Origin: a virus
Strand: one strand, 5' to 3'
IMG/VR virus record: IMGVR_UViG_3300009502_001139
Coordinates: 1 to 21,183 of that record
DNA: 21,183 nucleotides
Under the pieces are notes generated by a model. The model was not told where the DNA came from and did not search any database. It saw only the letters and a list, made by a program, of their open reading frames with translations. Positions 4,883 through 14,821 of the stretch are shown here, in pieces. Positions within the stretch are counted from its first letter, which is position 1. The number at the start of each line of letters is the position of its first letter. The position numbers and the translations under genes were made by a program.

Positions 4883-6061
4883 ATGAAGTCTTTTTTATAT
4901 TTTATAAAAGAAGAAGCTGAAGAAAGTGATGGTAAACTAAAACATATCGATCATGCTGAAGATCGTCCTATAATTGACGGGGCAAAAGGTTTTGAACACA
5001 CTCATGCAGCTTTAACACAAGCACATGAACATATCAAATCTGGTGGTGAAAGTTCTGCATTGACTATGAAATATGATGGTTCACCTGCTATTGTATTTGG
5101 TCATCATCCCGAAACAGGCAAATTCTTTGTAGCTTCCAAATCAGCTTTCAATAAAAACCCAAAAATTAACTATAATCATGCTGATATCGTGAAAAATCAC
5201 GGGCATGCTCCAGGATTAGTTGAAAAACTTCATGCAGGTCTCAAACATCTTAAAAAAGTAGCACCTAAGACTGGTGTATATCAAGGTGATTTGATGTATT
5301 CAGAAGGTGATCAAAAGGAAACGAAGAAAGGTGTTTCTTTCACCCCAAATACAATCACATATACTGCTAAGGGTGAACAAGCAGATAAAATCAAAAAATC
5401 CAAACTAGGTGTTGTTGTTCATACACAATATCATGGTAAAAATATCGCTGATATGCAATCGGATTCCCATCCTGACGTTCATAACTTTGGTCATCACCCA
5501 GACGTATGGCACAAATCTGCAAATCACGACACTTCACAAATTCATTACTCAGAAAAAGATCAAAACGAATTCAAAACACATCTTGCTGCTGCTAAGAAGA
5601 TACATGATGAACATAAGTCAAAAATGTATAAAGCAACAGAGATGCATTCTGGTGATGGTGGTCATTTAACGACATATATAAATCAAACTGTTAGAACTGG
5701 TGAAAAGCCAACAGCAGAAGGATTAAAACAACATATTGCTGTTAAATATAACAAAGCTGCCGAGAAGTTAAAGACTCCCGCTGGACAAGTTAGAAAACAA
5801 ACAGAAGCTAAAGGACATTTAGATCACATTGAAGCAAATAAAGATCATTATAACAATTTGTTAAAAATGCATAATCATATACAGAAAGCAAAAAATGTAT
5901 TGGTTAAAAATCTAGAGCAAAATGAAGGTGGTTTAGAACATCACATTGATGGAAAACGAACTGGTCCAGAGGGATTTGTTGTCAATCATGCAGGTGAGCC
6001 AACAAAATTAGTTAACAGAGAAGAATTTGCAAAAGCTAACTTATTGAAGGTGCGTAAATGA
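4883..6061 (+). CDS. Ligase-like covalent nucleotidyltransferase domain protein, CTS-like N-terminus
   Basis: A 392-residue, His- and Lys-rich protein. It carries motifs of the nucleotidyltransferase (DNA/RNA ligase) superfamily in order: KYDGSPA with K63 as candidate AMP-accepting lysine (motif I, KxDG); VYQGDLMY (residues 132-139) like motif III; LGVVVHTQY (175-183) like the strand before motif IV; GPEGFVV (361-367, E363) like motif IV; and TKLVNR (K375) like motif V. Between about 190 and 355 lies a long charged, helical insertion, so spacing from motif I to IV (about 300 residues) is much larger than in T4 RNA ligases. The first ten residues (MKSFLYFIKE) resemble the T4 capsid-targeting sequence. 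The start has TAGGA 7 bases upstream and it is the first gene after the late promoter. I recognise it as a type recurring in T4-like marine phages, usually without a function; ligase activity is inferred from motifs only. Confidence 0.6.
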   Translation: MKSFLYFIKEEAEESDGKLKHIDHAEDRPIIDGAKGFEHTHAALTQAHEHIKSGGESSALTMKYDGSPAIVFGHHPETGKFFVASKSAFNKNPKINYNHADIVKNHGHAPGLVEKLHAGLKHLKKVAPKTGVYQGDLMYSEGDQKETKKGVSFTPNTITYTAKGEQADKIKKSKLGVVVHTQYHGKNIADMQSDSHPDVHNFGHHPDVWHKSANHDTSQIHYSEKDQNEFKTHLAAAKKIHDEHKSKMYKATEMHSGDGGHLTTYINQTVRTGEKPTAEGLKQHIAVKYNKAAEKLKTPAGQVRKQTEAKGHLDHIEANKDHYNNLLKMHNHIQKAKNVLVKNLEQNEGGLEHHIDGKRTGPEGFVVNHAGEPTKLVNREEFAKANLLKVRK

Positions 6062-7239: not shown

Positions 7240-9156
7240 ATGAAAACATTTTTACAATTAGTTGAAGAAGAAGAAAAATCACACAATCCAGTAGTGATGG
7301 CTTTCGGACGTATGAATCCACCAACTGTTGGTCATATGAAATTGATAGACAAAGTGAAAAGTGTAGCAGAGAAACAAAAAGCAAAGCATGTTGTTATTGT
7401 TTCTCACTCACAAGATAGTAAGAAGAATCCATTAACTGCTGAACAAAAATTAAAACATCTAAAAAGATTTTCATCGGATACAAATTTTGATGCATCAAGC
7501 AAAGAACATCCATCTATTTTTCATCATGCCACAAAATTATACAATAAAGGGCACGACCACTTAACTGTTGTTGCTGGTTCAGATCGTGTTAAAGAATTCC
7601 ATGACACATTACATAAGTACAATGGTGTTGAAGGTAAACATGGATACTATAACTTTAAAAAGATCAATGTAGTATCAGCAGGTCAACGTGATCCTGACGC
7701 AGAAGGTACTGAAGGGATGTCTGCATCTAAAATGAGAGAACATGCTAAGAATGGAGATTTCTCTTCATTCAGAGAAGGTGTTCCATCACATGTAAAAGAT
7801 CATCATGCGAAAGAACTTATGAACGATGTTCGTAAGGGAATGGGAATGAATGAAGAAGTTGATCGTGGTCAGTTCAGAGCAATCTTCGTGACTGGAGGCC
7901 CAGGGTCAGGAAAAGATATTGTTATTCGTGAAGCCATCGCCGAATCTAAAATAACAGAACTCAATCACATTCAAGCTATCAACTATCTGTCTGATAAACA
8001 AAAATTATCAGAAAATTCTAGTGATAATAAATTACAAGCGATTCGATCAAAAGCACCATTGATAATTAATGGGCCTGCTGATGACATTGAGAAGATTTCT
8101 TATATTAAAGAAGAACTAGAAGAACTTGGATATCTGACAATGATGGTATTTGTAAATTCATCAAATGAAGTAAGTAAAGAAAGAAATAATTTACTAACAA
8201 GAATGATGAGTGAATCTGTTAGAAAAGACAAATGGGATAAATCACAAGAAAACGCTGACACATATAATGAAATATTTAACGACTTTATATTTTTTGATAA
8301 CTCTGGTGATGAAGTAGCTAAAGAAGAATTTGTTACAGAAGTTTATAAAACAACAAAATTGTTTTTAGATTCTAATTTAATTAACGAAGCTGCATCACAT
8401 TGGTTAAATAGAAGTGTGATAAACAAAAGCATCTATGATATATTTAAGGAAAACAAAAATGTTAAAAAAGATTCTAAATCTATTCAAAAAGCAAACCTCA
8501 GCACCAACGCTTGCGGCCAACACAGAATGCTCGCAGATAATAACTGCCCAGACTGTCAAATGGTCAGAATCGCAGGAAAACAAGATGACGTCCGATATGG
8601 CGACACAAAAGCAAATCCAGGTGGGTATATCTTCCGCACCTACGAAGAAAAAGGGCCGACCCTCAAAATCAATCCACCAGCAAAAGTCCCGAATTTCCAA
8701 AAAGACAACAACACAGAAAAAGTAAAAAAACGTGGAAATACATCTTTGAGTGCTGGACGTATTAGTAGACCTGATGGTATTGGTGGTGAATGGAATACAA
8801 GAACAAACGGTTCTGGTCTAACAGGTGGTGCTGGTCTTGGTAATCCAATGTCTAGTGAGAGTCAAGAATTTAGCACTGCAAATCCTGCTAGTACAGCATT
8901 TCCTGGCGGCGGATTAGTTGATCCTATGAAAGTTGACAGAGAGAAAATAACTGAAAAGCCATCTTTTACTAAAATAAGAAAGAAGCTAAAAGAATTTAAT
9001 GGTTTTCAAAATGGTTTAGGAAGTGGTCTTGGAGGTGTATTGGGTGGTGGTGATAACAAAGAAGGAATGGATACATATAAAGATCCTATGAGAAATGTTC
9101 AAAATGATTATGGTATAAAAATTAAGAAAAAAGAAACTAAAAGAAGATCACGTTGA
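7240..9156 (+). CDS. NadM-like adenylyl/cytidylyltransferase fused to a P-loop domain and a virion-type tail
   Basis: A 638-residue multidomain protein. Residues 17-200 form a cytidylyltransferase-like HIGH domain: FGRMNPPTVGH (22-32) is the nucleotide-binding motif and GMSASKMRE (159-167) is the equivalent of the ISSTxxR motif, with VAGSDRVKEF between them, as in nicotinamide-nucleotide adenylyltransferases. Residues 213-400 form a P-loop domain with Walker A TGGPGSGKD (218-226, K225). The tail from about 410 has CxxH/CxxC-like cysteines (CGQHR, CPDCQ), DDVRYGDTKANPGGYIFRTY, and a Gly-rich end with LGGGDNKEGMDTYKDP, a tail I associate with homologues in T4-like cyanophages. The expected chemistry is nucleotidyl transfer (perhaps NMN to NAD) plus phosphorylation of an unknown substrate. 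It has a CTS-like start (MKTFLQLVEE). A nested ORF and an out-of-frame extension lie in and after the tail. Confidence 0.8.
   Translation: MKTFLQLVEEEEKSHNPVVMAFGRMNPPTVGHMKLIDKVKSVAEKQKAKHVVIVSHSQDSKKNPLTAEQKLKHLKRFSSDTNFDASSKEHPSIFHHATKLYNKGHDHLTVVAGSDRVKEFHDTLHKYNGVEGKHGYYNFKKINVVSAGQRDPDAEGTEGMSASKMREHAKNGDFSSFREGVPSHVKDHHAKELMNDVRKGMGMNEEVDRGQFRAIFVTGGPGSGKDIVIREAIAESKITELNHIQAINYLSDKQKLSENSSDNKLQAIRSKAPLIINGPADDIEKISYIKEELEELGYLTMMVFVNSSNEVSKERNNLLTRMMSESVRKDKWDKSQENADTYNEIFNDFIFFDNSGDEVAKEEFVTEVYKTTKLFLDSNLINEAASHWLNRSVINKSIYDIFKENKNVKKDSKSIQKANLSTNACGQHRMLADNNCPDCQMVRIAGKQDDVRYGDTKANPGGYIFRTYEEKGPTLKINPPAKVPNFQKDNNTEKVKKRGNTSLSAGRISRPDGIGGEWNTRTNGSGLTGGAGLGNPMSSESQEFSTANPASTAFPGGGLVDPMKVDREKITEKPSFTKIRKKLKEFNGFQNGLGSGLGGVLGGGDNKEGMDTYKDPMRNVQNDYGIKIKKKETKRRSR
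8446..8450 (+). promoter_or_regulatory. Shine-Dalgarno AAGGA of the nested ORF
   Basis: AAGGA ends 8 bases before the ATG at 8459. The core and spacing are the same as for the o-spanin start (14494-14498 before ATG 14507), the other gene here that starts inside a longer gene. It lies inside the coding frame of the adenylyltransferase/P-loop gene, where it has no need to be. Confidence 0.5.
8459..8725 (+). CDS. Candidate overprinted small basic protein nested in the +1 frame
   Basis: An 88-residue ORF wholly inside the tail of the 7240-9156 gene, in its +1 frame. The product begins MLKKILNLFKKQ (short amphipathic basic helix), continues with a Ser/Thr/Ala/Gln-rich segment, has an AT-hook-like KKKGRPSK (residues 63-70), and ends in a Lys/Thr/Gln-rich tail. 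Support: a well-placed AAGGA; no stop for 88 codons in AT-rich DNA; and a strong wobble shift in the host frame, with about 28 C-ending to 11 T-ending codons over 8494-8700 against about 2 to 27 just downstream, which fades at the nested stop. Host wobble bases are second bases of the nested codons, so the shift is expected if Ser/Thr/Ala/Pro codons are maintained. No function is recognised. Alternatives: import of a short GC-richer segment, or chance. I recall no described homologue. Confidence 0.42.
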   Translation: MLKKILNLFKKQTSAPTLAANTECSQIITAQTVKWSESQENKMTSDMATQKQIQVGISSAPTKKKGRPSKSIHQQKSRISKKTTTQKK

Positions 9157-13966: not shown

Positions 13967-14185
13967 ATGGATATTGTTGTGAAACGTGTTGCAGAAGTAT
14001 TTGGTGTAGTTCCAGAATCGAAACAAATTGATAATACATTGTTTTTAAGAATTCATGGTATTGATGCAATGTCACTTTCAAATTGGATTTCAAATAATTT
14101 TTTAGATGTAAATGTACATATTAAGTATAGAAGATTAGATAAATTTTCTGATACTGATTGGATTATAATAGAAAAGAAGGAATAA
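13967..14185 (+). CDS. Small protein of unknown function
   Basis: A 72-residue protein that I do not recognise. The sequence alternates beta and helix (MDIVVKRVAEVFGV, then LFLRIHGID, a helix LSNWISNNFLD, and VHIKYRRLD), so a small alpha/beta fold is plausible. There is no signal peptide, membrane segment or Cys. It starts in TAATAATGG immediately after the upstream stop, and ends two bases before the i-spanin start, so it is co-transcribed with the lysis genes. Codon use matches its neighbours, with mostly T- or A-ending codons. Confidence 0.6.
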   Translation: MDIVVKRVAEVFGVVPESKQIDNTLFLRIHGIDAMSLSNWISNNFLDVNVHIKYRRLDKFSDTDWIIIEKKE

Positions 14186-14187
14186 AA

Positions 14188-14673
14188 ATGTGGATTATAA
14201 ACTTATTACCTGACTTTGTTTTTCATATTATGGTTATAGTTGGTATAATTGGTATTTTTTCTAGTTTATTTTTAGCATTTTTACCAATAATTACCTCATA
14301 TAAAATTTTAATACAATTTGTTTCAACTATAATATTGGCGTTTGGAATATATTTCGAAGGTGCAATAAACGACAGTAAAGAATGGAAACAAAAAGTTGCA
14401 GATATGGAAATGAAAGTTTCTATAGCAGAACAAAAATCTATGGATTTGAATAAAAAGATAGAAGATACTATCAATAATAATTTGGTAAAGGATAAGGAAA
14501 AAGAAAATGTTCAAACACAAATTATTCAAAAAGTTATTACGAAATATGATAATACCTGTAAGCTGTCTGATGATATTATCAGGTTGCATGACAGTGCCAG
14601 TCAAAACAGAATTCCCGACAGCAACATCGGAGTTACTACAAACACCCCCAATGTTACAAACAGTAAGAAGTGA
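14188..14673 (+). CDS. i-spanin (Rz-like inner membrane spanin subunit)
   Basis: A 161-residue protein starting at ATG 14188, which follows AAGGA at 8 bases; the in-frame ATG at 14158 would run into the upstream gene and add a hydrophilic leader, so I reject it. The N-terminus is hydrophobic and appears to hold two membrane segments (about residues 10-32 and 36-54), followed by a charged coiled coil (KEWKQKVADMEMKVSIAEQK, continuing to about 110) and a C-terminal part with one Cys (KYDNTCKLSDDI). This is the form of inner-membrane spanins of T4-like aquatic phages; lambda Rz has one membrane segment. It would span the periplasm and join the o-spanin, whose gene starts inside this one in another frame, to fuse inner and outer membranes in the last step of lysis. 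Confidence 0.75.
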   Translation: MWIINLLPDFVFHIMVIVGIIGIFSSLFLAFLPIITSYKILIQFVSTIILAFGIYFEGAINDSKEWKQKVADMEMKVSIAEQKSMDLNKKIEDTINNNLVKDKEKENVQTQIIQKVITKYDNTCKLSDDIIRLHDSASQNRIPDSNIGVTTNTPNVTNSKK

Positions 14674-14821
14674 TAATTCTACTACTGATGTAAAACTTTC
14701 AGATTTTATACAAATTGTTGTTAATAATTATAACACATATTACGCCGAGCGTGAAATTATTTTAGCTTGGCAACAATGGTATTCTGAAAATAAAAAAATA
14801 TTTGATGATGCGAACAAATGA
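14507..14821 (+). CDS. o-spanin (Rz1-like outer membrane lipoprotein)
   Basis: A 104-residue protein whose first 167 bases overlap the i-spanin gene in a different frame. The N-terminus is a lipoprotein signal: basic KHKLFKKLLRN, hydrophobic MIIPVSCLMI, lipobox LSGC with C27 as the expected acylated cysteine. The mature part has a Pro-containing linker (VPVKTEFPTATSELLQTPPM) and a helical end (LSDFIQIVVNNYNTYYAERE, then WQQWYSENKKIF). AAGGA (14494-14498) lies 8 bases before the ATG. It would be exported, processed by signal peptidase II and anchored in the outer membrane, where it pairs with the i-spanin. The stop overlaps the endolysin start as ATGA. Partial embedding of Rz1 in Rz is a classic arrangement of Gram-negative phages. 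Confidence 0.85.
   Translation: MFKHKLFKKLLRNMIIPVSCLMILSGCMTVPVKTEFPTATSELLQTPPMLQTVRSDNSTTDVKLSDFIQIVVNNYNTYYAEREIILAWQQWYSENKKIFDDANK

Follow-up and report, generated by a model that had tools for sequence, protein, structure and literature searches.

The open reading frame (ORF) at 8459-8725 of the DNA analyzed is almost certainly a real gene, judged from its sequence and from that of its relatives. Furthermore, it is very probably a genuine overprinted gene, which lies on the same strand as the gene around it and is initiated independently. The host gene codes for a cytidylyltransferase/P-loop protein, and the phages that carry it are T4-like relatives of Methylophilales phage Melnitz and of pelagiphages. 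The nested gene is a new protein family in an arrangement of a known kind. The window was the whole stretch of 21,183 nucleotides, positions 1 to 21,183 of the IMG/VR virus record IMGVR_UViG_3300009502_001139, which is a 21 kb sequence from an uncultivated virus. The features are listed in Table 1.

Table 1. Coordinates of the host gene, the nested gene and the predicted parts of its product in the window.
Feature	Position	Strand	Basis or description
Host gene	7240..9156	+	Cytidylyltransferase-like domain in the N-terminal ~210 aa, P-loop domain at ~210-395, variable linker, conserved C-terminal tail
Nested gene, 88 aa (very probably overprinted)	8459..8725	+	+1 frame of 7240-9156; homologous ORF in relatives; selection tests
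Putative Shine-Dalgarno (SD) site AAGGA of the nested gene	8446..8450	+	8 nt before the nested ATG; K-E in the host frame
Predicted N-terminal amphipathic helix	8459..8494	+	Hydrophobic moment; AlphaFold2 helix at residues 2-13
Predicted disordered middle, rich in Thr/Ser/Pro/Gln	8495..8635	+	T+S+P+Q fraction; low pLDDT
Basic tail, ending in KKKGRPSKSIHQQKSRISKKTTTQKK	8636..8722	+	Family pattern RSKSxxxPKxxTSxKTxTKK; alignments; net charge

Host gene, nested frame and relatives

The cytidylyltransferase-like domain of the host gene matched PF01467 (E 1e-8) and phrog_3041 (E 1e-65). This domain is widespread and also occurs in phages without the nested ORF, and the P-loop GGPGSGKD of the host protein was invariant among the relatives. 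The linker after the P-loop domain contained the entire nested ORF. In this linker, a possible zinc knuckle, CGQHxxxADNNCPDC, was observed at ~8506-8560. The pattern was partly kept in two relatives without the nested ORF, L073 and L085 (CKHG...NNCTFC and NNCTAC, respectively), and was absent from most carriers. The contig L002 was near-identical to the window (99.98% over 7.9 kb), but the window possessed an extra A in the homopolymer at 9126-9132, outside the nested ORF. With this base, which is a sequencing error or a real variant, the host protein ended in KKKETKRRSR and not in KKKKLKEDHVEEL..., and its stop came about 30 codons earlier.

Similar start peptides were observed in six genes of the window, which start at 4883, 6058, 7240, 9241, 11562, and 13773 (MKSFLYFIKEE, MKSIQYRIWEQ, MKTFLQLVEEE, MISFKHFLNDDD, MKNLKDFIKK, and MKTFKEFVKED, respectively). 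These peptides appear to resemble the capsid targeting sequence (CTS) of T4 internal proteins. If they are CTSs, the phage head may contain the host enzyme. The CTS of the T4 internal proteins has been described (PMC3012670).

The initial annotation claimed an 88-codon ORF in the +1 frame with AAGGA 8 nt before its ATG, and exactly this ORF, of 88 aa plus the stop, was found. In the single window sequence, the open frame was suggestive and, taken alone, not decisive (P about 0.015 when the host codons were redrawn from the gene's own usage), and other evidence was therefore needed from relatives. Two scans of IMG/VR yielded some 90 loci, and 67 non-redundant host genes were left after the removal of near-copies. 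All relatives were uncultivated metagenomic contigs of T4-like phages. A separate scan of genome contigs yielded relatives of the N-terminal domain only and gave no basis for assigning a bacterial host. A homologous +1 ORF was present in 55 of the 67 host genes (window counted), at about host codon 390-410. Thus, the ORF persists in most relatives with the host gene, a point that the initial annotation had proposed to check. No stop was found inside any of the 55 nested ORFs, whereas elsewhere in that gene the +1 frame had 5.8-7.0 stops per 100 codons. Across the relatives, the observation was therefore decisive. Moreover, the +1 frame was the only one open in all carriers, in which the identity of the host protein to that of the window fell to about 50%. 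The nested products were 61 to 128 aa long (median 93), the shortest being due to a contig end and, in L018, to a start set too far downstream. One further contig, L093, gave a raw regular-expression match; it was a false carrier and was counted among the 12 non-carriers. In the ten carrier contigs searched, the nested gene occurred as a single copy per genome and always nested, and no stand-alone copy was found. In one carrier of 162 kb, the major capsid protein was closest to those of Methylophilales phage Melnitz (65%) and pelagiphage Mosig (64%), which places the carriers among the T4-like phages, near Kyanoviridae.

Viral genes overprinted in the +1 frame of the same strand, of the phiX174 type, have been reviewed (PMC8227390). 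Like these, the present gene lies wholly inside the enclosing gene, in the +1 frame and on the same strand, its frame is open and conserved in relatives, and its product has no database homologues. It differs from them in that the phage is about 160 kb and the gene was found through a wobble signature coextensive with the ORF. The arrangement also resembled the Rz1-type nested o-spanin, which is a small gene read in a different frame within a larger phage gene and has a short SD-ATG arrangement. However, the nested product carried no signal peptide or lipobox, and the enclosing gene was an enzyme gene and not an i-spanin. Cys was absent from 53 of the 55 nested products (present in 2), and the N-terminus was a cationic amphipathic helix, unlike that of a spanin lipoprotein. 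Elsewhere in the window, a nested lipoprotein-like ORF (LSGC; 14507-14821 in 14158-14673) overlapped a small membrane protein and adjoined a lysozyme-like gene and a likely holin. The two ORFs are probably an i-spanin/o-spanin pair.

The nested product and its possible role

The nested products could be aligned from end to end. They began with ML[KR]x[IL][IL]x[LF][FL]K, contained QTT and TPSxPT in the middle, and shared a conserved Lys/Ser/Thr-rich C-terminus with SKS and TSxKT motifs. The T+S+P+Q fraction was 0.47 over the nested proteins of the carriers, and the net charge of the last 30 residues was about +9.5 on average. AlphaFold2, run with 46 homologues, predicted one helix (residues 2-13) and no further fold, with low pLDDT in the middle. 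Over the first 11 aa, the hydrophobic moment averaged 0.640 in the carriers, compared with 0.448 (sd of mean 0.016) when the host codons were shuffled. The amphipathicity of the helix thus exceeds the expectation imposed by the host protein.

The nested protein had no match in Pfam and gave only scattered, chance-level matches in PHROGs, and tblastn of two nested proteins against named phages returned no match. In a PDB profile search, one weak match to a phycobilisome protein (E 0.05) was taken as chance. The nested alignment was too variable for a pattern search of the whole collection. The AT-hook-like motif claimed in the initial annotation did not hold up in the family, since a motif of the GRP or RGRK type was present in only 2 of 55 homologues, and an AT-hook function was rejected. 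In addition, the motif S/T-P-x-K/R, a possible minor-groove binder, was slightly enriched (0.62 versus 0.45 under local codon shuffling), which is not a strong argument.

The nested product has three parts: a short cationic amphipathic helix, a disordered linker, and a Lys-rich tail. In E. coli MreB, a short N-terminal amphipathic helix serves as the membrane anchor (PMC3163269). An anchor of this kind is also present in B. subtilis Noc, by which DNA is brought to the membrane (PMC4331003). By its hydrophobic moment and the AlphaFold2 prediction, the N-terminus of the nested product is an amphipathic helix as well. Like both proteins, the nested product combines a short N-terminal amphipathic helix with basic residues; Noc, in addition, couples the helix to DNA binding. 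In contrast to them, it has no homology to either and no folded domain, and a basic disordered tail stands in place of a DNA-binding domain. By this analogy, the helix might lie in the inner membrane, as do the N-termini of MreB and Noc, and the basic tail might hold DNA or RNA. Tentatively, the nested product could be a peripheral inner-membrane protein that holds nucleic acid by its tail.

Another reading, which concerns the function only, has the helix dock on a protein of the phage or its host, with the tail as a flexible, basic tether. Candidate partners would be, for instance, the P-loop host protein itself, RNA polymerase, and the sliding clamp. Docking peptides, too, are commonly short amphipathic helices, and the location in the P-loop gene guarantees co-expression with its protein. 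However, the non-carriers keep the host gene, so the host protein has no need of the nested product, and basic residues next to the hydrophobic face suit membrane anchors well. Docking on a protein is about as likely as the membrane role, and each is possible rather than probable.

Initiation, wobble composition and selection

A site of the AAGGA, GGAG or AGGA type was present 5-10 nt upstream of the nested ATG in 50 of the 55 carriers and, as scored, was absent in 5. The host Lys codon that makes the AAGGA was AAG in 36 cases and AAA in 2, whereas the other K-E pairs of the same genes used AAG 34 times and AAA 501 times (p 4e-35, which overstates independence because the carriers are related). 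This codon bias argues that the nested gene has its own translation signals. Most likely, the nested frame would be translated from the mRNA of the host gene by independent initiation at its own SD site and ATG. Alternatively, ribosomes could enter the nested frame from the host frame by a programmed +1 or -2 shift, so that its product would extend the host protein at the C-terminus. The two frames share a strand, and A-rich runs occur near the nested start. However, the nested SD and ATG are conserved, the codon choice is bent to form the SD, and the host frame is still conserved 3' of the overlap in the relatives, which makes frameshifting very improbable.

In the window, the host third bases from 8494 to 8700 comprised 28 C, 11 T, 24 A, and 6 G, compared with 12 C and 56 T from 8000 to 8458 and with 4 C and 27 T from 8701 to 8860. 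The C and T counts of the initial annotation for the overlap and its T count downstream were reproduced, and its downstream C count of 2 was corrected to 4. Over the 55 carriers, the C and T fractions were 0.40 and 0.17 in the overlap, 0.14 and 0.39 in the 200 codons before it, and 0.12 and 0.42 in the 60 codons after it. The wobble flip was coextensive with the nested ORF in the 55 carriers and absent from the matching region of the 12 non-carriers. It very probably results from selection on the nested product, chiefly for Ser/Thr/Pro/Ala codons, in which the wobble base of the host frame occupies the second position. This cause was suggested in the initial annotation and gains support from the way the flip tracks the presence and absence of the ORF.

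The initial annotation had also considered a short imported GC-richer segment. According to this explanation, or to one of local mutational bias, the open +1 frame is a by-product. Local shuffling of the host codons within the overlap often kept the frame open (median P 0.45), and the openness thus stems largely from codon composition. However, in several non-carriers, such as L073, the host protein segment was clearly homologous and yet lacked the flip. The segment occurs without the flip and the flip accompanies the ORF, and an imported GC-rich block is therefore excluded. Moreover, composition does not explain the AAG codon at the SD, the amphipathic helix, or the results of the shuffling and substitution tests below. 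An origin by import or bias is accordingly highly unlikely.

Purifying selection on the nested frame, beyond that on the host frame, was observed in both the shuffling and the substitution tests, and the SD codon bias and the amphipathicity of the helix agreed with them. When the synonymous host codons were shuffled with the host protein kept, the mean similarity of the nested products was lowered (mean Z 3.6, 400 pairs, none negative). The same test on the +1 frame of control parts of the gene gave a mean Z of 0.6-1.75. The +2 frame in the overlap also gave some signal (Z 2.3), as expected from linked bases, and the frame-specific proof therefore rests on the open frame, the SD, and the NN/NS tests. 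Among ten pairs of close relatives, substitutions that affected both proteins (NN) were less frequent than those that affected the host protein alone (NS): the NN/NS was 0.61 in the overlap versus 1.09 in the upstream control (p 0.005 against the site expectation and p 2e-4 against the control), as obtained by simplified counting and not by OLGenie, with few SS sites (4 changes). The host synonymous rate per weighted site was 0.053 in the overlap and 0.080 in the control, a decrease of a third (p 2e-7), which is the reduced synonymous change that the initial annotation had asked for. The host motif SKSIQKA (~8476-8500), which overlies bases of the nested helix, was also kept in the non-carrier L005, and both frames may be constrained at these shared bases. 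An RNA element or an antisense gene in place of a +1 protein can be dismissed with near certainty: the window does contain an antisense ORF of 98 aa across this region (8700-8404), but at best 27% of the carriers were free of stops in an antisense frame, Rfam gave no match, and the constraint follows the +1 codon structure.

History and significance of the overprint

In a tree of the N-terminal 390 residues of the host protein, without an established root, carriers and non-carriers interleaved, and the presence and absence of the ORF required 7 changes. Because the nested products are homologous, the likely history is a single origin followed by several losses, or else exchange through recombination. 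The 12 lineages without the ORF keep the host gene, and the ORF is therefore not essential to it; with several lineages lacking it, the nested gene seems to be accessory. Neither frame had a codon usage close to that of the remaining gene (r 0.07 and 0.23). In the non-carriers L052 and L080, HMM matches (E 2e-4) hinted at decayed remnants, but they were not convincing, as 14 and 8 of 200 codon shuffles, respectively, scored equally high.

The finding may describe a phage protein family, always overprinted in one enzyme gene of a large uncultivated T4-like clade, that anchors nucleic acid of the phage or its host at the inner membrane, although this role is put forward with reserve. Genome compression does not obviously account for an overprinted gene in a large dsDNA phage, and annotation pipelines usually discard such ORFs. 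The flip in wobble composition is a cheap signature visible in a single genome, which could serve to screen viromes for further nested genes. Furthermore, the 55 diverse carriers and the 12 natural absences give access to the gain and loss of such a gene and to the conflict between two frames.
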